Shown: in pieces, positions 307 to 52,825 of the stretch
How positions within the stretch are numbered: the first letter of the stretch is position 1
Layout of the letters: each line of letters starts with the position of its first letter
Source of the DNA: Aliiglaciecola sp. M165
Lineage (GTDB): Bacteria; Pseudomonadota; Gammaproteobacteria; Enterobacterales; Alteromonadaceae
Direction: 5' to 3'
DNA length: 64,000 bases
NCBI RefSeq assembly: GCF_007197995.1
Contig: NZ_VKKH01000008.1
Coordinates: 1 to 64,000, forward strand
Notes under the pieces: model-generated
Seen by the model: the letters and a program-made list of their open reading frames with translations, nothing else
What the model was told of the DNA's origin: nothing
Databases searched by the model: none
Translations under genes and position numbers: made by a program

Positions 307-331
307 GAATTAACTAGACGCTAGCGTCTTG

Positions 332-625: not shown

Positions 626-640
626 TTTCCCCTCCTTATA

Positions 641-1330: not shown

Positions 1331-1335
1331 AAAGT

Positions 1336-39401: not shown

Positions 39402-40076
39402 TCAACCATTAGGAAAAACTGCTCTGATAATGAATCGCACAGAAGAGCAGTTAAGTTTTTTGCCTCGCCTACTTTTAATACCAAGCTGGTTAAGTTTTTC
39501 GGTTATGGTTTTTGTGTCACGGATTCCTTCACTCATAATGGATTCAATTATCGGCTTTAGCGATTGATGAAATTCGTTTGTTTGTTGTTTGATTCTCTCC
39601 CTTGCCCTGGAAGTGTCTGAATTTCGAACTTCTCCAAGAGAGGGGTTTCCTAGTTTGATCCCCCTGGCCTTGGCTGCTTGCAGTGCAGCTTTGGTTCTTT
39701 CTGATATTTTGTTTCGTTCATCTTCAGCCACTGCAGCCAGGATATGAATCGTTAACTTATTCGCATCAGGGTAGTCACAGCAAACGAAATTGACATTTGA
39801 GCGCATTAAGCCTGAAAGAAAGTGCACACACCGCGACAACCTGTCTAGTTTGGCAATAATGAGTATGGAGTTTGTTAGCTTACAGTGATTTAGAGCTGAG
39901 AGAAGGATAGGGCGATTGTTGCTTTTACCTGATTCTATTTCGGTGAAATCCTTAACTATGAAACCAGTGTCTCTCGATTTGATGTATCGATTCACTGCTT
40001 CTCTCTGTGCTTCCAAACCTAACCCGGATTCAGATTGTCTTTTTGTACTAACCCGAAAGTAAGCGATGTAGTTCAT
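39402..40076 (-). CDS. serine recombinase (resolvase/invertase family)
   Basis: The N-terminal catalytic domain has YFRVSTKRQSESGLGLEAQ (nucleophile Ser10) and AKLDRLSRCVHFLSGL with the conserved Arg residues. IHILAAVAEDERNKISERTKAAL marks the E helix. A short C-terminal HTH region ends in GKKLNCSSVRFIIRAV. At 224 residues it is the small resolvase type rather than a large serine integrase. It could have inserted the defence operon or serve another nested element. No obvious res site was found in the flanks. Confidence 0.9.
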   Translation of the reverse strand: MNYIAYFRVSTKRQSESGLGLEAQREAVNRYIKSRDTGFIVKDFTEIESGKSNNRPILLSALNHCKLTNSILIIAKLDRLSRCVHFLSGLMRSNVNFVCCDYPDANKLTIHILAAVAEDERNKISERTKAALQAAKARGIKLGNPSLGEVRNSDTSRARERIKQQTNEFHQSLKPIIESIMSEGIRDTKTITEKLNQLGIKSRRGKKLNCSSVRFIIRAVFPNG

Positions 40077-40532
40077 TGATACTTGCCTAAAAAATACTGC
40101 TATATGGTGGTTTAGCAGAATTATCTGGTCTTTGGTTAACCGGTCAAGAATGTGAACTTTTTAGCGACTGAATGAAATTGAGATTTGTCGCAGTGAGATT
40201 AGTTGAAAATCGTTTTGGGTTGAGACGTATTAGGGCAGCTAAATTAGGCTTCTCATATTTTGTATCAAAACACTGCAAAAAAACTACACCAGGAAAATAA
40301 TGGAGCAGTGGACTATATATCCATTTATTTGCAAATTAATTTAAGTACAACACTTGTTAGCCTATCGTGACCAGCTTAGACGTGATTGGCGGATCGCCGA
40401 TTTCGTTAGATAGTGTGATGCGTCAAGCTGTTTTGCTTTTTGTATTGCGAGCCATCGGTTTCAAAACGAATATTCGATTGTTCTTTCACACTAAAGACTA
40501 ATAAATTAACAAACAGAATAGGAAACTACATT
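40077..40532 (+). other. 456-bp region without a gene
   Basis: It contains a small dyad GGCGGATCGCC near 40388, AT-rich stretches that could hold promoters, and at its end AGAATAGGAAACTACATT directly before the next gene, including one exact TAGGAAAC (40519-40526). I see no supported coding sequence. Confidence 0.5.
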
Positions 40533-40829
40533 ATGGAGTTGAACGATTCACTTTCGGACAGTCAGGCGAGGTTCGCGTTGTGGCTGGAATGCAAAATGCC
40601 AGAGCTACTACGTTTTTTCGATTTTGACAAAAAAGAAATATTGCATTACTCATTATCAAGGTATTTATTATGTGCCCCACGTACCGAAAAAATACTGGTT
40701 AGATTTGTCGCGTTGGTGTGGATTCACGAAAACGAATACGACTTTTGTCTAGTTGAAGCCGCTAGATGTTTAGATGCGCGGCAATTAGGCATCATACTGG
40801 AATGGTTGAGAGACCCTATTTGGCCATAG
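40533..40829 (+). CDS. 98-residue hypothetical protein flanked by TAGGAAAC-type repeats
   Basis: A helical acidic protein rich in Leu and Cys with no known motif (ELNDSLSDSQARFALWLEC at the front). TAGGAAAC (40519-40526) sits six bases before its ATG. Its stop codon is the TAG of TAGGTAAT (40827), and TAGGAAAA follows at 40838. This is the same gene/junction arrangement as in the array that begins 700 bp downstream, although it lies outside the left palindrome. Confidence 0.65.
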   Translation: MELNDSLSDSQARFALWLECKMPELLRFFDFDKKEILHYSLSRYLLCAPRTEKILVRFVALVWIHENEYDFCLVEAARCLDARQLGIILEWLRDPIWP

Positions 40830-41073
40830 GTAATTAGTAGGAAAAATCGGCTGGTAGTCTCTTGGAATATTATTTTGGGGTCTTATTACTTAATTTTGTA
40901 ACAATTCCAAGAATGTTATCAGCCGCAATATACGTATAGATAAAAAAAGCGAATCCATAGCTTTTCGTCACGTTTTTTAGTTACTAAATGCAAACTATTA
41001 AACTAGGAGAAGCAAAACAAGTCATTGAACTTTGAAGTCGTACCAACATCAATAGTCGGCTAGAGCCCTCCAA

Positions 41074-41110
41074 ATATAGTTAACGTAAATTCGCAATTAC
41101 GTTAGCATAT
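41074..41110. repeat. left boundary palindrome (imperfect)
   Basis: ATAGTTAACGTAAAT, loop TCGC, then AATTACGTTAGCATAT form an imperfect stem. The 31-bp stretch from ATAGTTAACG matches the right copy at 51158 except for two bases. It could be an element end or a transcription barrier. Confidence 0.7.
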
Positions 41111-41167
41111 CAAACCTAACGGAATAAGGGAGATCTAAATTCTTATGCATTATTTCTGCACCCAAAC

Positions 41168-41252
41168 GTTTCCTATCACCCTGTATATTTAGCACCCTAC
41201 ATACTGTTGGTTTATTTTTGTACTAATATATAGGAAACCAAGTTTCCTATAT
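41168..41252. promoter_or_regulatory. attI-like recombination/operator region before the array recombinase
   Basis: It contains an inverted GTTTCCTA (41168-41175) and a perfect dyad, ATATAGGAAAC (41228-41238), spacer CAA, GTTTCCTATAT (41242-41252), ending 4 bp before the recombinase ATG. If the arms are taken as 9 bp, the spacer is 7 bp, a normal size for a tyrosine recombinase core site. The same 8-mer recurs at the cassette junctions, so this is the natural candidate for the primary site. Autoregulation by the recombinase binding here is also possible. Confidence 0.6.
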
Positions 41253-41256
41253 TAAA

Positions 41257-42045
41257 ATGACAGACGAAAAAATAGACTTTAAATGGCGGTGGAATCCTCC
41301 ATCATTGCGCACTGTAAAGCAGCCTGAAACGCTTACACCAGATGAATTTTTAGACATGGTTGAGAGAGTTGATAATGAGCGAGTAGAGCCACTTATTGGA
41401 TTGCGCAACCAGTGCATGTTGCTTACTACCTATTTTAGTTGTTTTCGTGCTGTTGAAGTGAGCCAGTGGAAAGTTAAGGAGGCTTTGTATCCTGATGGTT
41501 CACTAATGTTCGTCACTCGACTGAGAAAAGAGGGAACAAAGGGTAACTATCCTGCCATTGCCCATATACCCAACGTGCGGGAGTACAGAGCGTATTTAGA
41601 TAAGTGGGTTGATGCCAGAGTAAAACATCGCATTGGCAAAGATAAATCAGGCTCTACGGATTACAGAGGTTTAGATCCAGAGTCGCATGTGTTTTTAAGT
41701 AACTGGCGTGGATTGTGGCAACCGTTTTCGCTCACTCGCAAAGTATCAAAAGGTAAGGAATACATGGTTGCTACGGCTGTTCAGAACCTGCTTACTAAGC
41801 TCTATAAGGATTACGGATACTCAAATTCTAGTAGTCACGCTGGGAGACACAGCTTTGCACGCTTTGCTCAGAAGCTACTTGAAAAGAAAGGTTCTCAAGA
41901 TACAAATCGTATTATTCAAACTTTGCTACATCATCGTACCGAAGAAGCGCAGCGAGATTACACAGATATTGATTTTAATCATATTAGAGAAGTGGCTAGG
42001 CGAATGATGCCTAAACCCAAGAAACGCGGTAGGCCTAAAAAATAA
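41257..42045 (+). CDS. array-associated tyrosine recombinase
   Basis: The 262-residue recombinase has a short N-terminal part and a catalytic domain with Arg64 (SCFRAVEVSQ), the HAGR box (His194, Arg197), His225/226 (LLHHRTEEAQ) and the nucleophile Tyr235 (RDYTDI). The C-terminus is an AT-hook-like KKRGRPKK. It is shorter than IntI integrases (about 320-340) and lacks their extra helix region. The gene starts right after the TAGGAAAC dyad and leads the array, so it is the likely enzyme acting at those repeats. No good ribosome binding site is visible apart from the dyad. Confidence 0.9.
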   Translation: MTDEKIDFKWRWNPPSLRTVKQPETLTPDEFLDMVERVDNERVEPLIGLRNQCMLLTTYFSCFRAVEVSQWKVKEALYPDGSLMFVTRLRKEGTKGNYPAIAHIPNVREYRAYLDKWVDARVKHRIGKDKSGSTDYRGLDPESHVFLSNWRGLWQPFSLTRKVSKGKEYMVATAVQNLLTKLYKDYGYSNSSSHAGRHSFARFAQKLLEKKGSQDTNRIIQTLLHHRTEEAQRDYTDIDFNHIREVARRMMPKPKKRGRPKK

Positions 42046-42091
42046 GTTATAACAATGTTGCAACATTGAGTTGGCGTGCTATAGTTATAAC
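42046..42091 (+). promoter_or_regulatory. mazEF promoter and operator
   Basis: TTGCAA (42058-42063) and TATAGT (42080-42085) with a 16-bp spacer form a plausible promoter. Two copies of the palindromic 8-mer GTTATAAC (42046 and 42084), each followed by A(A/T)TGTT, and the 16-bp palindrome CAATGTTGCAACATTG (42053-42068) overlap it. This is what one expects of an autoregulated toxin-antitoxin operator. It may also drive the rest of the array. Confidence 0.65.
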
Positions 42092-42117
42092 ATTGTTACC
42101 ACAAGAGTGATTTTATT

Positions 42118-42375
42118 ATGGAACTCGTAATTAGAAAAATAGGCAATTCAAAGGGGGCAGTTATCCCGGCTCCTTTGCTTAAAGAGTTGGGTGTTGATGC
42201 TGGCCAGATTATGCAAGCAAACGTCGTTGAAGGCCGATTGGTCATCGAGAAGATGAATAAGCCTGAATATTCACTTGGTGAACTATTGGCACAATGCAAA
42301 CCAGAAACAATGGAATTGAGTTCAGAAGACCAAACTTGGTTGAATGATGGTCCTGCAGGGAAAGAAGAAGTCTGA
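42118..42375 (+). CDS. mazE: MazE-like antitoxin (AbrB/SpoVT fold)
   Basis: The 85-residue protein has the swapped-hairpin AbrB domain in its first half (MELVIRKIGNSKGAVIPAPLL, then AGQIMQANVVEGRLVIE) and an acidic C-terminal tail that would wrap the toxin. It binds its operator and neutralises MazF. Its stop overlaps the mazF start (TGATG). Confidence 0.88.
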   Translation: MELVIRKIGNSKGAVIPAPLLKELGVDAGQIMQANVVEGRLVIEKMNKPEYSLGELLAQCKPETMELSSEDQTWLNDGPAGKEEV

Positions 42376-42713
42376 TGGTGAAAAAGTATATTCCGAAGCG
42401 TGGCGATATTGTGTTCACAAATTTTAACCCTTCTGCTGGGAATGAGCAGGCATATGAAAGACCGGCATTGGTGCTTTCGCCTGAGCCATTTAACAATCAA
42501 GTACAGCTCGCCCTGGTTGCACCTATAACCTCAACGGTAAGAGGCCATGGCTTTGAAGTGGCCCTTGATGACAAAACAGCAACACAAGGTGTGGTGCTTT
42601 GTCAGCAGGTTAAGACAATTGATTATGAAACGAGGGGGGTAAGATATATTGAATCAGCCCCTCATCATTTAGTTAACGAGGCTTTAGCGCGTGTACGTGC
42701 GCTGGTTAGCTGA
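42375..42713 (+). CDS. mazF: MazF/ChpB-like mRNA interferase toxin
   Basis: The 112-residue PemK/MazF-fold toxin has YIPKRGDIVFTNFNPSAGNEQ at the N-terminus, RPALVLSPEPFN and the conserved VVLCQQVKTIDYETRG strand. Such toxins cleave RNA at short sequences. TGA at 42711 abuts TAGGAAAC at 42714. As first cassette pair next to the recombinase it may stabilise the array by post-segregational killing, as toxin-antitoxin genes do in superintegrons. Confidence 0.9.
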   Translation: MVKKYIPKRGDIVFTNFNPSAGNEQAYERPALVLSPEPFNNQVQLALVAPITSTVRGHGFEVALDDKTATQGVVLCQQVKTIDYETRGVRYIESAPHHLVNEALARVRALVS

Positions 42714-42977
42714 TAGGAAACAATATGAAAGACTCGATAAAGGCGGCATTGTTGTATTTGTGCTGTGTGATTACTGCAACATCTAGTTCTTATGTTGTGA
42801 CACAGCCATACGGAATACTAATTACTCTGGTTACTGGGGTGTTTTTAGGGGTGATTGTTTTTGTGCTTATTAACTCGGTACCATGGGTAAATAAAAAGAT
42901 TGGTTGGAACAAAATTATCCGTTCACTATACCACCGAGCAAGCGCTGAATACTAAGTTTAGAAAATGTAGGAAACAG
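42714..42977 (+). repeat. duplicated cassette unit, copy 1
   Basis: From TAGGAAAC at 42714 through TAGGAAACAG at 42968 this unit matches 47957-48219, differing by three substitutions in the gene, one base in the first repeat and a one-base indel before the second repeat. Outside the repeats the sequences are unrelated. Confidence 0.9.
42725..42955 (+). CDS. small two-TM protein, cassette copy 1
   Basis: The 76-residue protein has two hydrophobic segments (AALLYLCCVITATSSSYVV and GILITLVTGVFLGVIVFVLI) and a basic tail. It is the same gene as 47968-48198 with two amino acid changes. TAGGAAAC lies at 42714 (11 bp before the ATG) and 42968 (13 bp after the stop), and identity to the second copy stops at these repeats on both sides. 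Confidence 0.75.
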   Translation: MKDSIKAALLYLCCVITATSSSYVVTQPYGILITLVTGVFLGVIVFVLINSVPWVNKKIGWNKIIRSLYHRASAEY

Positions 42978-43136
42978 ATAATAAGGCCATTTACAAACGA
43001 TACGCATGGTAGAAATCATTATTTCCATGCGCCAAAAGAACATACGGTTCCTAAATCTTCAAATGATAGAAAAGGTACCAAAACGGCTAAGAGGCAATCT
43101 GATAAAGAGCTTCTCGCCCAAGAATTACAGCAGTAG
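42978..43136 (+). CDS. about 52-residue basic protein with ATA in the start position
   Basis: The frame fills the interval between two exact TAGGAAAC copies and ends with the TAG of the second. It is Lys/Arg/His-rich (KEHTVPKSSNDRKGTKTAKR). No ATG, GTG or TTG exists in it; the codons where a start belongs are ATA ATA. Either AUA is used or an ATG was lost. Unknown family. Confidence 0.45.
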   Translation: MIRPFTNDTHGRNHYFHAPKEHTVPKSSNDRKGTKTAKRQSDKELLAQELQQ

Positions 43137-43152
43137 GAAACGTGGAGCTCCG

Positions 43153-43641
43153 ATGCTCAATACATTAAAAGAGATTAGTGTTAACAAGTTTGAAAATAGT
43201 CAATTAATTGGTTTGAGTGCATTAGCGTTATTAACAACCATGTCCTTTAATTCGCATGCGAATACAAACAATGAATGCGAGCAATTCGAAAACATGCGAC
43301 CTCACTCAATTGTCTTAACTGGTACAAAAAATGTGTCAGAAGCGACAGACCTATCAATCCAATGGTCAGAATGTAACAAAGATGCCATTTCTTTAACGGT
43401 TTACCTTGGCACACACAAGCTAACGCCAAGTACAGAAATACTCGAAAACAAAATTTCGGAAGATATAAAATCCACGGGTTTAGAAAATTTTATGCTATTT
43501 ATTGTCAAACACGATAACGAAGGAACAGGGGCTTCCATACAATGGCAAGGTAAAAGCCTAGGTCTATTTCCCTTGAGCAGGCTTAAAGAGCAACTAATTG
43601 ATGCAGCAACTGCCGCAAATTGGGAAAACCAAAAATTCTAA
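43153..43641 (+). CDS. secreted hypothetical protein
   Basis: The ATG at 43153 with GGAG upstream, just after TAGGAAAC at 43134, begins a protein with a signal-like segment near 20-38 (LIGLSALALLTTMSFNSHA) and a 120-residue mature domain with two Cys. No known motif. A degenerate junction TCGGAAAA (43657) follows. Confidence 0.65.
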   Translation: MLNTLKEISVNKFENSQLIGLSALALLTTMSFNSHANTNNECEQFENMRPHSIVLTGTKNVSEATDLSIQWSECNKDAISLTVYLGTHKLTPSTEILENKISEDIKSTGLENFMLFIVKHDNEGTGASIQWQGKSLGLFPLSRLKEQLIDAATAANWENQKF

Positions 43642-43668
43642 AGCAATGTATCGCAATCGGAAAAAGGC

Positions 43669-43938
43669 ATGGATAAGAATAAACTGCTCATACAGTCTAC
43701 ATTGGAAGCCATTAAAACACTTGCTTTCAATCTGCTTGCAGGTTGGCTAGTTTGCCTCATTTTGCTTTACTTCTTCGCAGATGCATTAGGCCTTTTTGAA
43801 GTTCATAATTATTCAGAATTTATAGAACAAATGATGTTTTCTGTTCAATCTCTGGCGCTGCCCGTTTTAATTGCTCCGATCTTGGCAATGCTTAAATTTA
43901 ACAAAGTATATTTTTCTTCTGAAGAAGAGCAAATCTAA
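43669..43938 (+). CDS. small two-TM protein
   Basis: The 89-residue protein has TM segments at about 22-42 (LLAGWLVCLILLYFFAD) and 58-78 (LALPVLIAPILAML), acidic C-terminus. Exact TAGGAAAC at 43943 follows 4 bp after the stop. Confidence 0.65.
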   Translation: MDKNKLLIQSTLEAIKTLAFNLLAGWLVCLILLYFFADALGLFEVHNYSEFIEQMMFSVQSLALPVLIAPILAMLKFNKVYFSSEEEQI

Positions 43939-43956
43939 CGTATAGGAAACAGAAAA

Positions 43957-44361
43957 GTGATCAACCTCACAGATATTCAAGAGTTTGTTTCAGATTTTAG
44001 AAATGCATGCGATAAGGTAAATTGGCAAAAAATGCCGTTAGAATATCAAGAGTTCCCACTTGGTACTTGTGGAGCCATGAGTCAGATATTGGCGTCTTTC
44101 CTTATTGCAAGAGGATATGAAAATATTGAATATGTGGCTGGAGAAAGGAATAGTCAATCTCACGCTTGGTTGGAGATTGAAAGAATAGCTATTGATGTGA
44201 CAGCATCTCAATTCAATGAGATAGGAAGCAAAATTTTGTGTCAGAAAAAGTCTGAATGGCACAATCAATACGTAGAACAACAACGATTTTTATGCTCTGG
44301 CGAGCTTTCACCTAACCGGATTTTGGTTTCAAATGCTATTTATTGTCAACTAAATCAATAA
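43957..44361 (+). CDS. transglutaminase-like cysteine-protease-fold protein
   Basis: The 134-residue protein shows the ordered Cys-His-Asp pattern of the transglutaminase/papain-like core: FPLGTCGAMSQILASFL, then NSQSHAWLEIER, then IAIDVTASQF. The size is that of a bare core domain. It could be a protease, deamidase or cross-linking enzyme; the substrate is unknown. GTG start at 43957, six bases after TAGGAAAC. Confidence 0.6.
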   Translation: MINLTDIQEFVSDFRNACDKVNWQKMPLEYQEFPLGTCGAMSQILASFLIARGYENIEYVAGERNSQSHAWLEIERIAIDVTASQFNEIGSKILCQKKSEWHNQYVEQQRFLCSGELSPNRILVSNAIYCQLNQ

Positions 44362-44384
44362 TCTGCAAACAAGGGAATGAACAA

Positions 44385-44858
44385 ATGGAAGCCCGGCGAA
44401 TCGAAATGGCAGCTTTTAAAGCAATTGAACACTATAGAGCCGCTTTTCACTGTTCGATAGATAATGGGTATACCTTTGGTTCTTCGCAATTGATGCTTGT
44501 GTCATTTAGTGCAGAGTTGGCAATGAAGGCATTGAATTATCAACACGGTTCCAGTGCTAGTGGCCACCGATTGAAAAAATTATTGAATCAACTTCCGCCA
44601 AAATTTTCAGAGGAAATTGAGACAGAAATGAGAGAAGAATGGGATGACTACGATTCTTCTTTGGATAACGTAGACCATGCATTTGTTGAATGGCGATACA
44701 TATTTGAAGCAAAAGAGCCTAAAACTTTGAACGTTAACTTTTTAATGAGGCTAGCTGAAATCTGTTGCAACATAGTAAAACGCGAGTTTCACATTGAAGA
44801 ACGTATTATAGAAAATGGTGTGAGAAAAATTATTCACTTACCATCGATAAAAAAGTGA
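44385..44858 (+). CDS. HEPN-like helical protein
   Basis: The 157-residue helical protein has ELAMKALNY, SGHRLKKLLNQLP and HAFVEWRYIFEAK, an arrangement seen in HEPN-superfamily proteins. The R-x4-6-H catalytic motif is not evident, so it may be a non-catalytic member. The junction before it (TCTGCAAAC) is a poor match to the repeat. Confidence 0.45.
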   Translation: MEARRIEMAAFKAIEHYRAAFHCSIDNGYTFGSSQLMLVSFSAELAMKALNYQHGSSASGHRLKKLLNQLPPKFSEEIETEMREEWDDYDSSLDNVDHAFVEWRYIFEAKEPKTLNVNFLMRLAEICCNIVKREFHIEERIIENGVRKIIHLPSIKK

Positions 44859-44932
44859 CAAAGGAATGAAGATGTAAGCCCCTGTGGACTCAAAATGAGA
44901 GCCTAGTGGTTTAAAGGCTAGAGGCTATTTAC

Positions 44933-45094
44933 ATGGTTAGGCTAAAATCAACTAAAAAATTAAACTTACGGGTTTTTAAATTGGTTTTGAACATAGGGCT
45001 TGAAATTGAGCCTGATAAAGGCGATACGATTTCGTTTATTTGGCCCTCAGTAAACGGATATAAATTTGTCCAACTACCCAAAAAGTACAAATAG
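44933..45094 (+). CDS. 53-residue basic protein
   Basis: The frame MVRLKSTKKLNLRVF continues to QLPKKYK and its stop is the TAG of an exact TAGGAAAC (45092). The length and junction fit a cassette gene, but no ribosome binding site is clear. A short AAAGGAATG frame upstream (44868) is only three codons. Confidence 0.45.
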   Translation: MVRLKSTKKLNLRVFKLVLNIGLEIEPDKGDTISFIWPSVNGYKFVQLPKKYK

Positions 45095-45099
45095 GAAAC

Positions 45100-45325
45100 A
45101 TAGGCATACTCTTTAGATCCGATTATGGAAAACTAAACTGTAGATTTTGGTTGTCTGGAAAAATGATTAAAGCCCTTGTTTTACATGGCCAACGCTTAAA
45201 TAGCGAGTCTGGGGATTCCAGCATTTTTAGTCAAATGCTGGGTTAATAGTAACGATATTGAAGAATTCTGGAAAATCGCTCTTACAAGCGTCTTGAGTGG
45301 TTTTCCAGAGTTCTTCCAGAACTGA
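45100..45325 (+). pseudogene. decayed cassette: two overlapping short frames and a hairpin
   Basis: After TAGGAAAC (45092) a frame beginning with ATA runs to TAA at 45244. A second frame, open from 45200, reads protein-like to TGA at 45323 (ending SGFPEFFQN). A frameshift in one original gene would explain both. A TAGTAAC at 45247 resembles the junction repeat. GAAGAATTCTGGAAAA (45260) and TTTTCCAGAGTTCTTC (45301) form a 16-bp stem with one G-T pair. Confidence 0.4.
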
Positions 45326-45340
45326 ATATAAAGAGTAAAG

Positions 45341-46195
45341 ATGTCATTCAAATGGAAGGAGGTTAACTGGCCTACAATTTTGTTGAGCGGTATTCTGGCA
45401 GCGATAATTAGCTTTATAGGAAATAAAATCAATACAGAAAATACAATCGAAGCAAATAAGAATTTACAGAACAATGATTTAACCTTACGCATTGAGCAAT
45501 TTGATAAAAAATACGAACTAGATAAGCAAGAACTTGCTGAGTCCCGTATAGCGAGTCTGTCTGAGCAGCAGCTTTTATCTGACCAGCTAGATTTTCAACG
45601 AAAAAAGTCTTTGCAAGTAGAACAGCAGTTATCAATATTGAAACAATTCCTAACATCCAATACTAGCAATATTAAGCAGATAACAGCGCAACAACTAGCT
45701 TTAATTACTAATTTCGCAAAGCAATTAGAAACGGATAGAAATGAGATAAATAAAATCACTATACGTGAGAAGACACTGAACTATATTGACGCCGCTCGAC
45801 TTGTTCACCAAAAAACTGCGGAGCTTAATTCGACCTCTTGTGTGCTAACATTTAATTCGACTAGCATTGTAGATGGTGTAAAGGTGTTTTTTGGTAATAA
45901 ACAATTAGACTCTGCTTCTTGTGACGCTCATAACCTTGTTCGTGCTGAATTAATCGAAGCGCTTGTTCAATATGAATCTAAATTCAGTGACGTATTGTTT
46001 CTAGCAGCACCAAATTTATCTGCAAAAATTACGACTCTTAATGATGAAGTAAACACAACTGCACTACGCAAATTTCTATTAAGTGGTAGCGGTATGATCG
46101 ATTTAACAGCAGATATTGTCAGTTTGAACACATTAATGATGCCTGAGTCGAGATTTTCAGCACATTTGGCTGCGATCATGACAGAGGTACCATAA
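45341..46195 (+). CDS. membrane-anchored coiled-coil protein
   Basis: The 284-residue protein has an N-terminal TM helix (PTILLSGILAAIISFIG), a long Gln/Glu/Lys coiled coil (about 38-145) and a C-terminal helical domain with two Cys. It is the largest gene of the array. Neither the preceding (AAAGAG) nor following junction (TTGGGAATAG) matches the repeat well. Confidence 0.65.
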   Translation: MSFKWKEVNWPTILLSGILAAIISFIGNKINTENTIEANKNLQNNDLTLRIEQFDKKYELDKQELAESRIASLSEQQLLSDQLDFQRKKSLQVEQQLSILKQFLTSNTSNIKQITAQQLALITNFAKQLETDRNEINKITIREKTLNYIDAARLVHQKTAELNSTSCVLTFNSTSIVDGVKVFFGNKQLDSASCDAHNLVRAELIEALVQYESKFSDVLFLAAPNLSAKITTLNDEVNTTALRKFLLSGSGMIDLTADIVSLNTLMMPESRFSAHLAAIMTEVP

Positions 46196-46213
46196 AAGTT
46201 GGGAATAGATGAG

Positions 46214-46285
46214 ATGAACAACTTATTTGCAATACAGTTGTACCTAAAATCAATTATACATCTTAACGCACAACTGATAGTTTGA
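46214..46285 (+). CDS. possible 23-residue peptide
   Basis: A tiny frame (MNNLFAIQLYLKSII and eight more residues) lies alone between two array genes. GGGAATAG precedes the ATG. It could equally be noise. Confidence 0.2.
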   Translation: MNNLFAIQLYLKSIIHLNAQLIV

Positions 46286-46311
46286 GTATATGAAATTTGA
46301 GGATTTTAGTT

Positions 46312-46653
46312 GTGAAAAACTATTTCAATAGTTTTATCTTATGTGCAACAGTAGCAGTGTCTGTGGCGACTATGCCTACGTATGCCGAAAAGAATGTTAG
46401 GCCTGATCCACAACCAAAAACACCAGAAGGCTCAAGAGTAACTTTTCAATATGGCTTTGACGTAGATAAGGCTATGCTAGAAACTGCAGCCCGTTTTCTT
46501 ATTAAAGAAGGTTGCGAGACAGACATAAAATACTCCGAAGAAGTTTTCCCTGGGGAGATTAAAGTGTCTACCAGGGGGCAATCAGAAGAATACGAAGACC
46601 CTGCTGCAGCCGCAACATGGGCTTTACAAAATTGTTTACCTGTAGGTAAGTAA
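46312..46653 (+). CDS. small secreted protein
   Basis: GTG at 46312, with GAGG upstream, starts a signal peptide (MKNYFNSFILCATVAVSVA...YA) and a mature part of about 88 residues with two Cys that could form a disulfide. The frame can also be read from TTG at 46297. Unknown family. Confidence 0.6.
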   Translation: MKNYFNSFILCATVAVSVATMPTYAEKNVRPDPQPKTPEGSRVTFQYGFDVDKAMLETAARFLIKEGCETDIKYSEEVFPGEIKVSTRGQSEEYEDPAAAATWALQNCLPVGK

Positions 46654-46659
46654 TAAAAG

Positions 46660-46821
46660 ATGGAATTCTGGAAATTTACCTTACTGTAGGTGGCAGCATT
46701 AACAGCTAAGTCTGTTGGTTTAGTTTGGGCCTTGATCGAGTTATATGATTTTGTGACACTGATGATTCAAATTCCAGTTGTATTTTGGCGAAGTTTGCCG
46801 CTGATTTTACCAAATCGCTAA
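46660..46821 (+). pseudogene. small membrane-protein gene interrupted by TAG
   Basis: ATG GAA TTC TGG starts a frame stopped by TAG at 46687 (codon 10). The same frame then continues for 43 codons with a TM-like stretch (LTAKSVGLVWALIELYDF) to TAA at 46819. A single base change would restore a 53-residue protein. Confidence 0.5.
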
Positions 46822-46835
46822 CACAGGAATAAGAA

Positions 46836-47084
46836 ATGATCATCGATGATATTATTTCAATCGGCCAGTGGACTCGTAAACCACCGACAGAATCAGGCAC
46901 ATACTGGCACTGGTGGGGTGACAACAAAAGTGCCCCTTTCGTATTCAATGTTGGTTTTTCCGGTACCAAACGAAAATGTTTTATTCAAAAAGGTCATGGC
47001 GGTATGAAGGACCCTCAGTGGTGAGATGAATATGGTGGGTTCTGGGCTCCATCGTTCCCCCCATCTACTAGTTTTGAAGCATAG
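46836..47084 (+). pseudogene. Trp-rich small protein gene interrupted by TGA
   Basis: The first 62 codons (PTESGTYWHWWGDNK; CFIQKGHGGMKDPQW) end in TGA at 47022. The frame then continues as DEYGGFWAPSFPPS to TAG at 47082. The continuation reads as the natural end of the same small Trp/Gly-rich domain, so TGA most likely replaced TGG or a Cys codon. The final TAG starts a weak junction repeat TAGGCCAT. AGGAATAAG precedes the ATG. Confidence 0.55.
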
Positions 47085-47090
47085 GCCATC

Positions 47091-47282
47091 ATGCAGACCA
47101 TTACAGACAATTTTACACTGACTTCTGGTGATTATGTTTATCTTCATTGGCATTCAGATCCCAGCACCAAGCTGATTGCAAAGAAGTTAGTGGATGGCCA
47201 ATTAGTAAATGCCGCAACTGGCGATGAGATTAGTAAGCATTCATTAAGAAATTGGCTTGTTGGCGAAGAATTCAAGTTGTAG
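47091..47282 (+). CDS. 63-residue hypothetical protein
   Basis: A compact beta-rich sequence (FTLTSGDYVYLHWHSDP) of unknown family. Its stop is the TAG of TAGGAAAA (47280). Confidence 0.55.
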   Translation: MQTITDNFTLTSGDYVYLHWHSDPSTKLIAKKLVDGQLVNAATGDEISKHSLRNWLVGEEFKL

Positions 47283-47300
47283 GAAAAAGGAAGTGATCAT

Positions 47301-47579
47301 ATGAGTATGCACATATCAGGAAGCGGCGAAAAGGTTGTACTTTACGAAAGAATCAAATTTCTGGAGATTGCTATCGAAGTGGCAAATGAAGACGAAGAAA
47401 GTGAAGCTATTGCCTCCAAATTGGAAGCAGAACTACAGCAATACAAGGATAGATATGAGAGTGCTGATGGCAGTGTTTTAATGGACGCTTCTGGAAAGTT
47501 TGAGTTAAAAATGCGAGCTAAAATGTATATTCAAATGATACGCGATTCTTCGGCTCAAAAGACTGAAAATCGAACATAG
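47301..47579 (+). CDS. 92-residue helical acidic protein
   Basis: Mostly alpha-helical, charged (IAIEVANEDEESEAIASKL), no known motif. It lies between TAGGAAAA (47280) and TAGGAGAC (47577), whose TAG is its stop codon. Confidence 0.6.
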   Translation: MSMHISGSGEKVVLYERIKFLEIAIEVANEDEESEAIASKLEAELQQYKDRYESADGSVLMDASGKFELKMRAKMYIQMIRDSSAQKTENRT

Positions 47580-47584
47580 GAGAC

Positions 47585-47791
47585 ATGATGACCAAATTTA
47601 TTATGGTTGATATGGAAGGGCCTATAGCCGCAACTATAGGAACAGCTAATATCTGTATGGCTGTATCGGATGGCAAGGAAAGAACTAAGGTTTTTTTCAC
47701 CGGAAAGGACGAACCGATTGTGATCCTTTGTTCACTCACAGAATTCAATAAAGCATGTGGATCAGAAGAAATATTTGTAGAAATTGAGTGA
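47585..47791 (+). CDS. 68-residue hypothetical protein
   Basis: Two adjacent ATG codons begin the frame, one base after TAGGAGAC. The sequence (KFIMVDMEGPIAATIGTA) looks like a small beta-rich domain. TGA at 47789 abuts an exact TAGGAAAC. Confidence 0.6.
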   Translation: MMTKFIMVDMEGPIAATIGTANICMAVSDGKERTKVFFTGKDEPIVILCSLTEFNKACGSEEIFVEIE

Positions 47792-47803
47792 TAGGAAACA
47801 ATA

Positions 47804-47959
47804 ATGCTCGATGTTTTAGTGGTAATACTTTTGATAGCTGTGCCAGTTATTTTACTTATGTGGTTCCTTGGCTTTTTCGCACGTAAAAAGAAGAAAAATA
47901 AATCAGGATGGGACAACCCAAATAAATCACCGCTATCAAAGTCAATTGATGATAGATAG
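47804..47959 (+). CDS. 51-residue single-TM protein
   Basis: An N-terminal TM helix (LDVLVVILLIAVPVILLMW) is followed by a Lys-rich tail. The ATG at 47804 is four bases after TAGGAAAC, and the stop is the TAG of TAGGAAAA (47957). Confidence 0.65.
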   Translation: MLDVLVVILLIAVPVILLMWFLGFFARKKKKNKSGWDNPNKSPLSKSIDDR

Positions 47960-48219
47960 GAAAAAATATGAAAGACTCGATAAAGGCGGCATTGTTGTAT
48001 TTGTGCTGTGTGATTACTGCAACATCTAGTTCTTATGTTGTGACACAGCCATACGGAATACTAATTACTCTGGTTACTGGAGTGTTTTTAGGGGTGATTG
48101 TTTTTGTGCTTATTACCTCGGTACCATGGGTAAATAAAAAGATTGGTTGGAACAAAATTATCCGTTCAATATACCACCGAGCAAGCGCTGAATACTAAGT
48201 TTAGAAATGTAGGAAACAG
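47957..48219 (+). repeat. duplicated cassette unit, copy 2
   Basis: This is the second copy of the unit at 42714-42977, bounded by TAGGAAAA (47957) and TAGGAAACAG (48210). Similarity to copy 1 begins and ends at the repeats. Confidence 0.9.
47968..48198 (+). CDS. small two-TM protein, cassette copy 2
   Basis: The 76-residue product differs from copy 1 only by Asn to Thr (residue 51) and Leu to Ile (residue 68). It is read in a different neighbourhood, which shows the gene moved or was copied as a unit. Confidence 0.75.
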   Translation: MKDSIKAALLYLCCVITATSSSYVVTQPYGILITLVTGVFLGVIVFVLITSVPWVNKKIGWNKIIRSIYHRASAEY

Positions 48220-48220
48220 G

Positions 48221-48370
48221 ATGATGTTAAAACGAAAAATTACCTTACCGTTGAGTATGCTGACTATAGCTTCAACCGGGTTTCTGATGATTCTTGGAGT
48301 GATACCAATGTCACTATATAGTTTGATACCCGCAGGGGTTCTTGCTTGCGCAAACGTATTCGCTCGATAG
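48221..48370 (+). CDS. 49-residue two-TM protein
   Basis: The protein has two short hydrophobic segments (LSMLTIASTGFLMILGVI and LYSLIPAGVLACANVF). The ATG pair at 48221 follows TAGGAAACAGG, and the stop is the TAG of the next exact TAGGAAAC (48368). Confidence 0.6.
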   Translation: MMLKRKITLPLSMLTIASTGFLMILGVIPMSLYSLIPAGVLACANVFAR

Positions 48371-48428
48371 GAAACAATGTACGAACAATATGCCATAATG
48401 TAATAAACAATACAGCATTATGTGATTT

Positions 48429-48689
48429 ATGGCAGAAGCATTCTATAGAGTCAAAGAAGGTGAATTTGTTCGTCAGCTTGAAACAACAACCATCACAAAA
48501 GTGATCGCGCAAGAAAGTATAGATGAACCTTTAAAGTTTGTTGTAGTGGCAATAAATTCGGCCACTAAAATGGCATATGCTATGCGTCATGGGCGAGTAG
48601 ATGAACTTAGAACATGGCGCTTAGATAATCTAGCTAGATTTTTAAAAAAACACGCTGTAGCCTCTTTTGAGACTCAGTTTCAGAGATAG
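48429..48689 (+). CDS. 86-residue hypothetical protein
   Basis: Unknown small soluble protein (KVIAQESIDEPLKFVVVAIN). Its start lies 53 bp after TAGGAAAC. The gap holds an eight-codon ATG frame and a CATAATG/CATTATG inverted pair. The stop is the TAG of TAGGAAAT (48687). Confidence 0.6.
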   Translation: MAEAFYRVKEGEFVRQLETTTITKVIAQESIDEPLKFVVVAINSATKMAYAMRHGRVDELRTWRLDNLARFLKKHAVASFETQFQR

Positions 48690-48699
48690 GAAATGACAT

Positions 48700-49233
48700 A
48701 TGGAAAATGGAATGGAAGTTAGTTTAGTGGTAATTGCACAAATAGCTTCAGTGCTAGTTTCAGCTGGCACAGGCTTAGTGTTATTGGTCTCCGCTAGAAT
48801 CAATTTTAAGATTGCTAAGAATGCTACTAGAGCACGCAGAGAGCAGAACTATTTTCAAGCAAGTAATTTGATGATGAAGTATTGGGACGACATCCAGCAT
48901 ATCCATTCTCTCAACAACAAAAAAATACATTATGAAGATTGGGAGCCTAAAGATAGAGCCATCGCCGCTAGAGTTTGCTTATGTTTACACCAGATAGGTG
49001 GTTTGATGGGAAGTGGTGCTGTGCCAGAGTCAATATGTGAATTGTATTTTTACTCCATTCCCAAGGTATACCATACATTGAAGCCATATCTTGAGTCCGT
49101 TCGCAAAGAGGGCAAGGATTTTAGGCATCAAAGTTATTGGTTCGAGCTTGAACCTTTAGTTGAAAAAGCGCTCCAGCTGAATAAATCTAAAGGTCGAGAC
49201 TTTGGGGACATTGAATTGCTAAAAGTTGGATAG
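48700..49233 (+). CDS. membrane-anchored helical protein (DUF4760-like)
   Basis: A TM helix near 7-28 (LVVIAQIASVLVSAGTGLVLLV) precedes a soluble helical domain with NYFQASNLMMKYWDDI and HQIGGLMGSG, similar in layout to DUF4760 proteins. The stop is the TAG of TAGGAAAT (49231). Confidence 0.6.
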   Translation: MENGMEVSLVVIAQIASVLVSAGTGLVLLVSARINFKIAKNATRARREQNYFQASNLMMKYWDDIQHIHSLNNKKIHYEDWEPKDRAIAARVCLCLHQIGGLMGSGAVPESICELYFYSIPKVYHTLKPYLESVRKEGKDFRHQSYWFELEPLVEKALQLNKSKGRDFGDIELLKVG

Positions 49234-49244
49234 GAAATAATGAA

Positions 49245-49637
49245 ATGGTAGGTAAAGTAGACTGGGAAAAATTATTAGAAAAGTTAGGCGGAGAGAATTC
49301 TAGAGCTTCAGAGTGTTTAAGTAAGATAATATCTCACATTATTGATTGTGGATTATCTAACCAACTCACCGTGGAAGAAACAGGCTATGGTGACTTGTTA
49401 ATACGTAATATTGCATATCAAAAAAAACATTTCCAATTGATGCCAATCTCCGATAATCGGTTGGAGCTGAATTTCAAGGATGAAAACACTGGTGTAGTTC
49501 GTTGTTTCTTTCCACACCCAAGTCATTCTGATTCGCTTAACAGAGTTTCTCAGATTCTAAGCAACATTGACTGGACCAATCCGGTTAAACCAAATAAATG
49601 GTATGACTGGCCTTTCTTCTATCCAATGGTCAAGTAA
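49245..49637 (+). CDS. 130-residue hypothetical protein
   Basis: Soluble alpha/beta protein with Trp/Pro-rich end (KPNKWYDWPFFYP). Unknown. TAGGAAAT follows one base after the stop. Confidence 0.6.
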   Translation: MVGKVDWEKLLEKLGGENSRASECLSKIISHIIDCGLSNQLTVEETGYGDLLIRNIAYQKKHFQLMPISDNRLELNFKDENTGVVRCFFPHPSHSDSLNRVSQILSNIDWTNPVKPNKWYDWPFFYPMVK

Positions 49638-49650
49638 ATAGGAAATATTA

Positions 49651-49947
49651 ATGGATTTTGCAGCAAAGATAGCCTTTATCCTCATAGCTGTTACAACAAC
49701 AGTATGGTATTTGATAGAACAAAGGAAAGATCAAGAACCATTTAATTACGGCAAAATCATCTGGGCGATTTGTACGGGCTGGTTAGCTGGTTTTTGTTTG
49801 TATGTAGTTTTCTTTGTTGATCCTGCTGAGCAGGGACAAGCATTAACTTTGTATAACAGAGTTAAAGAAAATGGAGCCGTGTTAGCCGCGTCGATTGCGG
49901 CCAGCGCTTTAGCTTGGGATAGGTTTTTCAATAGAACAAACCAATAA
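49651..49947 (+). CDS. 98-residue membrane protein
   Basis: There are two or three TM segments (AFILIAVTTTVWYLI; IIWAICTGWLAGFCLYVVFF; a late Ala-rich helix). The ATG is four bases after TAGGAAAT. TAGGTAAC (49958) follows 10 bp after the stop. Confidence 0.65.
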   Translation: MDFAAKIAFILIAVTTTVWYLIEQRKDQEPFNYGKIIWAICTGWLAGFCLYVVFFVDPAEQGQALTLYNRVKENGAVLAASIAASALAWDRFFNRTNQ

Positions 49948-49968
49948 CAGTGAATACTAGGTAACATA

Positions 49969-50265
49969 GTGATTAGAGTGTGTCCATCAAGAAAAGGCGT
50001 TTACGGTATATGTCAAAGTGGTGTGGTGGAACCCACTCTGGCTGATTTCGTTTATATTGGTAGAGCCAAATCGATTGAGTCTAGGCGTGCCGATTATGAA
50101 CGAATATCTTTGGGTGCATCAGCTAATAAAATATCTAGTCAATTGCACCAATGGCTGATCATGAACAAAGACTTTCAGTTTTTCATTATCTCAGAGAAAG
50201 AATCCGAGGAAATGCTTTTAATCAAGTTGTCACTCGAAATGGGTGCAATGCTTTTTAACAGATAG
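49969..50265 (+). CDS. GIY-YIG-like nuclease-fold protein
   Basis: KGVYGI (GVY at residues 10-12), then FVYIGRAKSIESRRADY with YIG at 29-31 and Arg39/40, give the GIY-YIG order and spacing. A later Glu (EEMLLIKLSLE) could be the metal ligand. The domain is of minimal length and may be catalytic or only DNA-binding. GTG start, three bases after TAGGTAAC; stop is the TAG of TAGGATAC. Confidence 0.55.
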   Translation: MIRVCPSRKGVYGICQSGVVEPTLADFVYIGRAKSIESRRADYERISLGASANKISSQLHQWLIMNKDFQFFIISEKESEEMLLIKLSLEMGAMLFNR

Positions 50266-50276
50266 GATACATCAAA

Positions 50277-50543
50277 ATGGATTTTACTCAGACTGTAGAG
50301 CCTTTGGAATTGGGCGATGGAGAAAGATTCTTATTGGTTTATGTAGATCAGGATAGAGGTGAAATAATTTCTATTTCGCTTGAAGTCGTTTTAAAAAATG
50401 AGCATGGATAGGGAAGTAAGCGCTTAGACGTAGCGATTGATCATTACAATAAACCCAAGCGCACTGCAATGTGTTATTTCATTGAGTGCAGCGACTCAAA
50501 TATGGTCGCATTTGAAGAATTTAAAAAGAAAATATCACGATAG
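50277..50543 (+). pseudogene. small soluble protein gene interrupted by TAG
   Basis: ATG at 50277 begins a frame (DGERFLLVYVDQDRGE) closed by TAG at 50409. The same frame continues for 43 protein-like codons (RTAMCYFIECSDSNMV) to the TAG of an exact TAGGAAAC at 50541. A single substitution (TGG or CAG to TAG) would explain it. The first part alone (44 residues) might still be made. Confidence 0.5.
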
Positions 50544-50586
50544 GAAACATTGTAATTTATTGCAAAAAAATATGTAGGAGCAGTAA

Positions 50587-51126
50587 ATGGCACTTCTAGC
50601 AGAAACACTTGTTGATGAGTGGTTAAATCGTAATGGTTACTTCACCATGAGGGGTCTTAAACTTGGAGTTCAAGAGATAGACCTGCTCGGCGTAAAAAGT
50701 GTTTCATATAAAGCTAGCGCTAGACATGTCGAAGTGCAAGTTAGCTTGCGACCTGTAGCCTATATAACACCATTACAAAAACAGCACATACCAAGTTTTG
50801 CTAAAGCCAAGAACAGCGCAAAAAAGCGCCCAAAAACGATTATAGAAGAAAGTGTTGCAGCTTGGGTTGAAAAAAAATTTACTTCACTCAATAAAAACAA
50901 AGTTAGAGATGCCAAGTGGCCAGACTGCGAATGGGAGTTCATGTTTGTCCATGGCGTTGTCATAGAAGAGTACGAATTGGAAGTGATGCGTTCATTAGGC
51001 ATTAATACAGTACCGCTTTGGCATGTGTTACGTGATTTGAAACACGCGCCTGGTGTAATTACGGGTGGAGCCGGCACTGATCTCGCCGAATTGATTGAAT
51101 ACTTTAATGAACGTGTGGCCGAATAA
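50587..51126 (+). CDS. restriction-endonuclease-fold-like protein, last array gene
   Basis: The 179-residue protein reads ETLVDEWLNRNGYFTMRG, then VQEIDLLGVK and ARHVEVQVSLRPV. The E...(E)ID...EVQ order matches PD-(D/E)xK nucleases with an ExQ variant. Start ATG at 50587 follows TAGGAGCAG. It ends 28 bp before the right palindrome. The target is unknown. Confidence 0.6.
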   Translation: MALLAETLVDEWLNRNGYFTMRGLKLGVQEIDLLGVKSVSYKASARHVEVQVSLRPVAYITPLQKQHIPSFAKAKNSAKKRPKTIIEESVAAWVEKKFTSLNKNKVRDAKWPDCEWEFMFVHGVVIEEYELEVMRSLGINTVPLWHVLRDLKHAPGVITGGAGTDLAELIEYFNERVAE

Positions 51127-51153
51127 ATCAATTATCAAACAGGTCATTTAGTG

Positions 51154-51195
51154 ATTTATAGTTAACGTAAATTCGCATTTACGTTAACTATAAAT
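51154..51195. repeat. right boundary palindrome (perfect 19-bp arms)
   Basis: ATTTATAGTTAACGTAAAT, loop TCGC, and its exact reverse complement form a 42-bp dyad between the converging genes ending at 51126 and 51224. It may be an element end, a recombination site or a bidirectional terminator. No T tract beyond the arms. Confidence 0.85.
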
Positions 51196-51223
51196 CTAAT
51201 AAGTAACAATAGAATTGTGGATG

Positions 51224-52825
51224 TTAGTTATAATTCTGTTCACTAATTCGAGGCACGGGTAATTCTATTCTGTTACCTTCAATATCGACAATTACACCTC
51301 TGAAAGAAGTGGAACTGAAAGCCTGCTTTAATTCGTTTTTGTGATTCTTAAGATTCTCAGCTGCAGGGCCACAGATTTCTCCCCACTTTACACTCGAGCA
51401 ATACGCTTGAGCACTTGTTTGCAAATCAACATCTGACAGTTCCAAGACAGAATTAGAAATCAAGCTTTTTAATTTTTCTTGGTCAAGCGCCTTTAAAACG
51501 GTACCGCTATCGCGCACAAATTCAAACCTATTGATATAGTTTATATTGTAGATAGAAAACTCTGGCCAATAATTTGCCTTTTTATGTATTTGCTCTTGTA
51601 TGTTAGCGTATGAACCAGACGCTTGAGCTTTCCATTTGTTGAATTGCCCAAAGTTAATGTTTAAGTGTTTTAACATTGTTGTGTCAATATCAATCGCACG
51701 GATAAAACAGTCTTCTTCGAAATTATCGAAACATAAACGAGTTTTATTCGACAGGTCATTTAATCGCTTTTCTATGGAGGTTCTTTCTGCTTGTAGAGCA
51801 GTTTTTGATGCTGGCTTTATGGAAAAGCCTGCCAGACCGTCAGCGGCTAAAACGTCCTCTATTTGAATGTAGCGCGCGACTAACTTTTCAGCGTTTGTCT
51901 TAGCGATATCTAAATTGCTGAATAGAGAAGCTATATATTTAAAAGTAGGATCTTTTTCAATATCAAAATGTCGGGATATCTTATCAACATTGAATGATTT
52001 TATTTGTGAGGTTTCCCAGCTGATAGCTTTGATGGCTTCCTTCAATGATTGCCTAACAGACAAAATATCTGCGGGCTCTAGCCCAATAAGGCTTTTTAAC
52101 GATGGCGTATTATCAATTGTACCTGATTGAAAGATGTAGGTTGAAACGGTTGCAGTTGAGTCAACTTGTTTCACCGAAGATGTGAGGTTAACTGCCGCGT
52201 TAGCTTTGCCTTTTGAGCTACTTACGGCCAAGGACACTGCTGACGAAATTTCTTCGACATATTTACTATTTGACGCAGTGAAGACATATGCGACGCTAAT
52301 GTTTGTCTCTTTGACAACGCTCGTAATAAGGCCTCTGCCACATGGTCGATAGAACAATTGACTATCCTTTTCCTCATTGGCCTCACTTAAGTATGCTTTC
52401 CCTTCGTCGGTTAATTTTACTCTTTTTACTCGTTGAGAGTTGTATGATCTTACGCCCGATACAATATAAACAATACTTTTGTTGTCGTTAAATATTTCTC
52501 TCTGCTCTTTGTAGTCCGCAGCAGCGCTGACCTTAGCCAAACCAAAATTGGTAGAGCCTGAAGCGGAAAGACTAAGTCCTGTCTTTTTAGAGAACTCTGA
52601 AAAACTACTGACAAACCCTTCAGAGTAACTTTCTTGAGCGATAGGGGGTTTTTCTTTATAAGTAACGTCAAAGCATTCTCCAAGAGATCCAACATCAAAT
52701 GGAGCAAAAGGATCGAATGATTCACCTAGATCTGCAGTCATACCCGGCTGAAAAACAATGTTTTCGGATTGCGCACCAAAGCTTGCAAAGAGTATAAGTA
52801 GCATTACTGTGATATTTTTTTTCAT
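51224..52825 (-). CDS. secreted protein, possible MACPF/CDC-like fold
   Basis: A Sec signal peptide (ITVMLLILFASFGAQS) opens a 533-residue protein. Residues about 85-260 read like a membrane-attack/perforin core: SIVYIVSGV, LTDEGKAYL, FYRPCGRGLITSVV (in place of the Y-G-T-H-Y/F signature), SVAYVFTAS, and Ser/Ala/Val-rich segments that could be the insertion hairpins. The match is loose, so the call is tentative. It is the last gene of a three-gene operon with a recombinase. AAGGAAAAA precedes the ATG. Confidence 0.4.
   Translation of the reverse strand: MKKNITVMLLILFASFGAQSENIVFQPGMTADLGESFDPFAPFDVGSLGECFDVTYKEKPPIAQESYSEGFVSSFSEFSKKTGLSLSASGSTNFGLAKVSAAADYKEQREIFNDNKSIVYIVSGVRSYNSQRVKRVKLTDEGKAYLSEANEEKDSQLFYRPCGRGLITSVVKETNISVAYVFTASNSKYVEEISSAVSLAVSSSKGKANAAVNLTSSVKQVDSTATVSTYIFQSGTIDNTPSLKSLIGLEPADILSVRQSLKEAIKAISWETSQIKSFNVDKISRHFDIEKDPTFKYIASLFSNLDIAKTNAEKLVARYIQIEDVLAADGLAGFSIKPASKTALQAERTSIEKRLNDLSNKTRLCFDNFEEDCFIRAIDIDTTMLKHLNINFGQFNKWKAQASGSYANIQEQIHKKANYWPEFSIYNINYINRFEFVRDSGTVLKALDQEKLKSLISNSVLELSDVDLQTSAQAYCSSVKWGEICGPAAENLKNHKNELKQAFSSTSFRGVIVDIEGNRIELPVPRISEQNYN

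Follow-up and report, generated by a model that had tools for sequence, protein, structure and literature searches.

Integrons are, to our knowledge, the only general platform known for arrays of gene cassettes; on Acinetobacter plasmids, pdif/Xer modules are built on 28-bp dif-like sites with 11-bp arms and on the host recombinases XerC/D. Here we describe a locus from Aliiglaciecola sp. M165 that shares traits with both. Within a 64-kb window (the whole stretch of DNA analysed, positions 1 to 64,000 of the 266,910-bp contig NZ_VKKH01000008.1, C28, of a 4.6-Mb genome), a 262-residue tyrosine recombinase is followed on its own strand by about 25 tiny genes, many of whose junctions carry the short repeat TAGGAAAC. 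This is very probably a gene-cassette array operating by site-specific recombination, integron-like in function and made of other parts. A further comparison is offered by the integron-like elements at rulB in Pseudomonas, which, in the available excerpts of PMC4542609, measure 9-16 kb, occupy one insertion position with a 3-bp repeat and carry three recombinases.

As in integrons, small and mostly uncharacterised genes stand in one orientation beside a tyrosine recombinase, toxin-antitoxin genes are among them, and cassettes are duplicated, gained, lost and reordered at sites. Unlike in integrons, the recombinase has no IntI match and takes another position in the tree, the junctions have neither attC hairpin nor long repeat but a five-base core (GGAAA), and the array lies downstream on the recombinase's strand with its mark placed as a ribosome-binding site. 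With pdif/Xer modules the system has in common plasmid modules, often toxin-antitoxin, moved between short sites by tyrosine recombinases; it differs in its roughly 8 conserved bases and dedicated recombinase. The likeness to rulB elements extends to Pseudomonas plasmids, the rulAB neighbourhood, site-specific recombinases and variable cargo, but in the excerpts of PMC4542609 whole elements insert and shuffled single-gene cassettes are not described. Plasmid pAMRG65-300 has, according to passages of PMC5217437, only hypothetical proteins in common with two other plasmids, and the words recombinase and integrase are absent from the main text of that paper. No such array is described in the passages on tyrosine recombinase classes in PMC8138268, or in the titles and abstracts among the matches listed from open PubMed Central, a scope outside which preprints and subscription papers fall.

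The repeat and gene string of the window

The preliminary description of this DNA, made from the sequence alone, had reported the recombinase, its train of tiny same-strand genes and eleven exact forward copies of TAGGAAAC, all of which we confirm. The repeat matches 14 times in the window, where 1.92 matches are expected over both strands and 100 shuffles gave at most 6; the eleven forward copies all lie within 40519-50541, nearly all at gene junctions, and the other three matches are reverse. With one mismatch allowed, 20 forward and 2 reverse copies fall within 42046-51200, again mostly at junctions. The claims that the repeats sit almost only at junctions, with TAG often the stop codon, and that the recombinase leads the array held in part. 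Most of the 23 forward copies with at most one mismatch within 40400-51200 are at junctions, and in nine TAG is exactly a listed stop codon, but five lie inside a listed open reading frame (ORF), two of them (42968 and 50541) in doubtful overlapping ORFs. Likewise, the array does lie downstream of the recombinase, but two exact copies (40519 and 41231) precede that gene and a MazE/MazF-type pair (42118-42713) separates it from the first downstream site. Units break at the mark, as had been proposed for an 8-bp core, but the invariant core is only GGAAA, which in GGAAA-anchored marine arrays usually has TA or TG before it and C or T after it.

No 28-bp dif-like sites were found at the junctions, where base composition is marked over about 8 bases only. 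Repeats within the window array form 13 families: besides a unit present twice, these are short pairs or triplets of 20-29 nt, and none recurs at the junctions as a set. The duplicated unit (253 nt, 98% identity) has four of four ends at sites, its homology running over 42712-42977 and 47955-48219 and stopping at most 2 nt from sites on all four sides.

The mark includes AGGA, and in the marine group its end usually lies 3-8 nt 5' of the next start codon. Taking 15 array stretches with 164 sites together, an open frame of at least 30 codons begins 8-23 nt on from 119 sites, compared with 674 of 3,000 random positions, and 99 of the 119 starts fall at 11-16 nt (counted from the first base of the site). 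This position supports the earlier suggestion that the repeat doubles as a translation signal for the next gene, with the refinement, set out below, that the signal would sit at the 3' end of the upstream unit.

Breakpoints between related arrays

Relatives of the window's recombinase at 44-90% identity (some partial) occur in Alteromonas, Pseudoalteromonas, Vibrio, one metagenome-assembled genome, three virus contigs (one match being a 31-residue fragment) and three plasmid records; in one virus contig, tail-fibre-type genes adjoin the array. Array loci were located via the recombinase. Downstream of the marine recombinases the small genes lie mostly on the same strand and many junctions carry T(A/G)GGAAA, the arrays of L003 and L024 being short.

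The homologous Alteromonas megaplasmids pKD01 and MRG65-300 have both array flanks in common (93.9%; 91.7-95.1%), and between these flanks single cassettes or short groups are reordered, one of them in five copies, with many alignments beginning or ending at TRGGAAAC. Across 15 marine stretches, pairs anchored on (T/C)(A/G)GGAAA were alike in the downstream unit only (18 pairs) or in the upstream unit only (10), never in both, and identity had reached background level at positions -3 and +9 relative to the site. Because these pairs were chosen around sites, unanchored tests were also made on the same number of stretches: 69 of 220 alignment ends had a site no more than 12 nt away in one or both sequences, as against 16.0 expected from 500 random shifts (sd 3.6, largest 28), and in pKD01 × MRG65 alignments shorter than 1,000 bp, 28 of 46 ends were near a site versus 3.6 expected (largest 11).

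More distant recombinases, 24-28% identical to that of the window, lead runs of small same-strand genes on plasmids of Pseudomonas (pA506, Rms163 and others), Halomonas and Shewanella, and a Burkholderia glumae plasmid encodes one at 27% identity in a like layout. A MazE/ChpB- or MazE/MazF-type pair follows the recombinase in several loci, including those of Pseudomonas and Burkholderia. Some arrays are weak: L044 (HR96) is short, L038 has few genes and L063 (Vibrio parahaemolyticus) has a fragmentary recombinase, while L042 (4810-S13) and L046 (pQBR103), retrieved by a common DNA stretch, hold no good array. The Shewanella junctions yielded no clear word.

In the Pseudomonas group, 33 of 108 alignment ends lay within 8 nt of GGAAA in both sequences, where 0.3 were expected (largest 3, n=500; 12 stretches). 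Two Pseudomonas aeruginosa plasmids, from H05 and 2024CK-00032, match within the compared stretch over 3,121 bp at 100% on the left and 5,023 bp at 99.66% on the right of a 2,162-bp block confined to H05. The block holds six small annotated genes and six internal GGAAA words, covering 5 of 5 gene junctions, and is flanked by AGGAAATCGA repeats; the plasmid of 2024CK-00032 has a single AGGAAATCGA copy in its place. Between Rms163 and p382 there are two differences, a block of about 2.5 kb at a single GGAAA junction (GGAAT on one side) and a change in the stretch adjoining the recombinase; elsewhere the two are colinear at 99%.

When all 1,024 five-mers were used as breakpoint anchors, GGAAA came first in both the Pseudomonas group (52 distinct edges) and the marine group (34 edge pairs). 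It was followed in the Pseudomonas group by AGGAA, which overlaps it (32), GAAAA (18) and CCATG (15). The last, a start-codon word, gave 14 left and 1 right edges, whereas GGAAA gave both kinds, 25 left and 27 right distinct edges in 15 stretches (reduced from 47 and 52 by dropping equal-sequence pairs; marine edges are given without such reduction). At the left edges, identity stays at background until GGAAA begins, is 0.32 at the base that follows the word (N), and then stands at 0.76-1.0; at the right edges it is high up to GGAAA, 0.78 at N, and then 0.67, 0.44 and 0.37. This makes N identical in 8 of the 25 left edges and 21 of the 27 right ones (Fisher p 0.0018, the edges not being independent), and N therefore belongs to the upstream unit and travels with it. 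On this comparison of sequences, exchange in the Pseudomonas group falls just 3' of GGAAAN, and the ribosome-binding signal would therefore lie at the upstream unit's 3' end.

The recombinase and a proposed mechanism

The window's recombinase matches PF00589 (Phage_integrase; 28.5 bits, cut-off 27.1), and its residues 21-255 weakly match positions 102-294 of the XerC profile, the C-terminal two thirds of XerC. Scores against XerC (41.7 bits, cut-off 335) and XerD (35.2 bits, cut-off 330) fall below the curated cut-offs, the IntI-type profile TIGR02249 gave no match at E 0.1, phage records gave none at E 1e-5, and PDB sequences returned two weak Xer matches (E 0.0028 and 0.73). A structure prediction from seven sequences (mean predicted local distance difference test, pLDDT, 40.5) was not used. 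Residues K95, H194, R197, H226 and Y235 are identical in 12 of 12 aligned homologues and R64 is nearly invariant; from their motifs we take these six to be catalytic. At E 1e-30 the recombinase is found in 4 of 295 genomes of the window's family (its own included), 1 of 369 of the class (its own), 4 of 227 in the genus of the Vibrio locus and 2 of 108 in that of the Pseudoalteromonas locus, and alignment A2 at E 1e-20 matched 2 of 398 genomes of the phylum (again counting its own).

An inverted TTTCC element, a possible counterpart of attI, lies upstream of the recombinase in 12 of 12 marine and 9 of 9 Pseudomonas-group aligned loci. In the former, from Alteromonas to Vibrio, it reads GTTTCCYAT, and TRGGAAAY directly precedes the recombinase start in 11 of 12 (the exception, L004, has TAGTAAAC); in the latter, ACACC follows TTTCC in 8. 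A tree of array-heading recombinases from the window's genus, Alteromonas, Pseudoalteromonas, Vibrio, Pseudomonas, Halomonas and Shewanella (the Burkholderia one was left out) places the marine and Pseudomonas groups together with a second recombinase of the window (support 100/99), apart from this genome's IntI, two of its Xer proteins (searched for with the XerC profile only, the label XerD being our own) and three other integrases.

The sequence comparisons show that units exist, are reshuffled and are gained or lost with breakpoints at the mark, that the layout is conserved and, in the Pseudomonas group, at which base exchange falls. We propose that a cassette is a small, apparently promoterless gene with a short mark at its end, usually TRGGAAAN in marine arrays and AGGAAAN in those of the Pseudomonas group. 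Exchange of strands at the 3' edge of this GGAAAN would remove or add a cassette or block between two marks and reshuffle the order. Because the mark holds AGGA at the spacing given above, the Shine-Dalgarno sequence of each gene would come from the cassette upstream of it, making an inserted gene translatable at once. The adjacent small recombinase, seemingly a catalytic domain only, probably performs the exchange, perhaps with the conserved TTTCC element as partner site. Cassettes may travel as circles, transcription would enter from upstream of the recombinase, and the MazEF-type pair may stabilise the array.

Several observations weigh against this account. No tyrosine recombinase site known to us is as short as the mark, which also lacks paired inverted arms, so that its recognition is left without explanation, and exact TAGGAAAC leads the 8-mers of only 4 of 12 arrays and ranks within the top eight in 5 of 12. 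Among the unanchored marine alignment ends, 151 of 220 lie away from any site; plain GGAAA anchors also return pairs alike on both sides, 40 in the marine group (colinear groups or words inside genes) and 70 in the Pseudomonas group (colinear stretches or words inside genes). Identity of N at marine edges is 0.68 on the left and 0.58 on the right, so that the exchange position is not placed there, and a clean 926-bp difference between P8W and pS810b has its right end off any GGAAA. As for the enzyme, the pKD01 recombinase (L013 14995-15795) has Lys in place of the first presumed catalytic Arg, no full copy is present in MRG65-300 (the best place covers 32%), the pS810b array stretch has no annotated recombinase, and the tree program warns of long branches. 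The pKD01 array may be inactive because of its Arg-to-Lys change, and since MRG65-300 has only partial copies, some arrays may now be frozen. These copies, each consisting of the recombinase end and the next genes, number three across the MRG65-300 array (L015 6641-7322 and 12013-12930; L016 1263-1710). The 926-bp stretch (L060 10687-11612), missing in pS810b, carries an AbiJ-type gene.

The best-placed alternative would be rearrangement by microhomology or RecA at the only word common to the junctions, retained where selection spares the frames, with the recombinase a bystander. It would accommodate the presence of GGAAA at the junctions, the 926-bp difference ending off the mark, and the arrays whose recombinase is defective, partial or not annotated. 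However, the Pseudomonas exchange lies outside the common word, with N coming from the upstream unit, related recombinases head arrays in many genera (though the loci were found by recombinase), and 5-10 bp is too short for RecA, all of which makes this explanation improbable.

Action in trans is less likely still. The genome encodes Xer proteins and a true integron integrase (444 bits on contig C5), and IntI is able to use poor secondary sites. The C5 integron has IntI at 4319-5326 of L053 and nine 118-nt repeats at 120-3662, which we take for attC sites. The array junctions, in contrast, lack repeats of the 118-nt type, show no attC-like hairpins (the preliminary description had seen neither attC sites nor IntI) and fold less than random windows (mean -4.22 kcal/mol for 130 sites in 8 of 15 stretches, versus -5.52 for 960 windows), an effect that may be due in part to base composition.

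Least credible, and rejected, is the alternative that had already been offered, an ordinary operon in which small genes use a favoured ribosome-binding site and the repeat is of translational use only: AGGA at ribosome-binding distance ahead of most starts fits it, and AGGAAA-like starts are plausible in compact gene strings, but gene order among relatives breaks at the mark, as in the H05 block, the Shine-Dalgarno words GGAGG and GAGGA anchor 1 and 10 edges against 52 for GGAAA, and TAGGAAAC, with only 75 copies in the whole genome (48 forward, 27 reverse) against 197 for a reversed-pattern control, is therefore not a common ribosome-binding site here. Fixed gene order in relatives and genome-wide use of the 8-mer as a ribosome-binding site had been named as what would speak against a different cassette system; we found neither, cassettes changing neighbours at the repeat, and the proposal of such a system is supported.

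With moderate confidence, we favour a broader reading, in which these arrays form, in parallel with integrons, a second and independent cassette-capture platform of proteobacterial plasmids (and of a 3.2-Mb contig and phage-like contigs). Double-stranded DNA would be exchanged by a minimal tyrosine recombinase, a catalytic domain only, at six bases that serve as recombination site and ribosome-binding site alike; in some Alteromonas the opposite side of the recombinase would bear a second, mirror-image array, whose units are larger and have promoters and terminators of their own. If such a platform is real, a large unread reservoir of tiny genes would lie on plasmids of several genera, Rms163 of P. 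aeruginosa among them, since Pfam (E 0.001) matched only 23 families, each with one or two members, among 133 cassette proteins (set A1, a selection from 247 called ORFs plus annotated genes). The matches include toxin-antitoxin parts, ankyrin repeats, a PDDEXK nuclease, DNA methylase and ribosome modulation factor. One short word serving as recombination and ribosome-binding site suggests a new economy, and poses the biochemical question of how a recombinase with no recognisable core-binding domain recognises a target of five to eight bases.

Left of the recombinase in two loci (L001 895-9914, L002 7601-9912) runs a mirror-image series in which GTTTCCYA, the 8-mer or a variant of it reversed, follows a terminator-like sequence and mostly GCCYGAAC. 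Several left-hand units of L001 have heads of about 184 bp, 93-96% identical, before different genes. This series is possibly a second type of array.

Features and surroundings of the locus

Coordinates of the recombinase, junction sites and cassettes in the window
Feature	Position	Strand	Remark
Site TAGGAAAC and small ORF after it (40533-40829)	40519..40829	+	upstream of recombinase
Inverted copy GTTTCCTATCACCC, outer half of conserved element 5' of recombinase	41168..41181	-	GTTTCCYAT in 12/12 aligned loci
Palindrome TAGGAAAC-CAA-GTTTCCTA just 5' of recombinase start codon	41231..41249	.	candidate primary site/operator
262-residue tyrosine recombinase	41257..42045	+	Phage_integrase domain; separate N-terminal core-binding domain not recognised
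MazE/ChpS-type antitoxin	42118..42375	+	ChpS 62.5 bits (below cut-off 101); MazE_antitoxin 26.6 bits (cut-off 24.7)
MazF/ChpB-type toxin	42375..42713	+	ChpB 97.6 bits (below cut-off 129)
Site TAGGAAAC, first junction downstream	42714..42721	+	
Cassette, duplicated unit copy 1	42725..42955	+	253 nt, 98% identical to 47955-48207
Site TAGGAAAC	42968..42975	+	
Site TAGGAAAC	43134..43141	+	
Cassette genes 43153-43641, 43669-43938	43153..43938	+	ORF list
Site TAGGAAAC	43943..43950	+	
Cassette genes 43957-44361, 44385-44858, 44933-45094	43957..45094	+	ORF list
Site TAGGAAAC	45092..45099	+	
Cassette genes 45341-46195, 46312-46653, 46690-46821, 46836-47024, 47091-47282	45341..47282	+	no junction site at ≤1 mismatch before 47280
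Variant site TAGGAAAA	47280..47287	+	
Variant site TAGGAGAC	47577..47584	+	
Site TAGGAAAC	47792..47799	+	
Variant site TAGGAAAA	47957..47964	+	
Cassette, duplicated unit copy 2	47968..48198	+	
Site TAGGAAAC	48210..48217	+	
Site TAGGAAAC	48368..48375	+	
86-residue cassette, also in pKD01 array	48429..48689	+	77% over 328 nt, sites at both ends
Variant site TAGGAAAT	48687..48694	+	
Variant site TAGGAAAT	49231..49238	+	
Variant site TAGGAAAT	49639..49646	+	
Variant site TAGGTAAC	49958..49965	+	
Variant site TAGGATAC	50263..50270	+	
Site TAGGAAAC, final exact copy	50541..50548	+	
Final array gene, 179 residues	50587..51126	+	no match in NCBIfam, Pfam or PADLOC at limits used

Rfam gave no match at gathering scores within 39000-52000. 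Relatives of the 86-residue cassette lie near ParB on further Alteromonas plasmids.

A perfect 21-bp direct repeat, TATAGTTAACGTAAATTCGCA, brackets the recombinase and array at 41075-41095 and 51157-51177, the right copy being part of a strong palindrome. With up to 2 mismatches, its inner 19 bases match the genome only at those two places, and none of the other fetched loci has a copy with fewer than 5 mismatches; the repeats are perhaps the ends of a 10-kb mobile unit. Just beyond the array lies the second small tyrosine recombinase (52840-53631, minus strand), which groups with the cassette recombinases in the tree on a long branch. On the other side, 36287-39185 encodes a TIR-domain protein and a short prokaryotic Argonaute (PADLOC pAgo_I 677 bits, Aga_TIR 418 bits), presumably a SPARTA-like defence pair.

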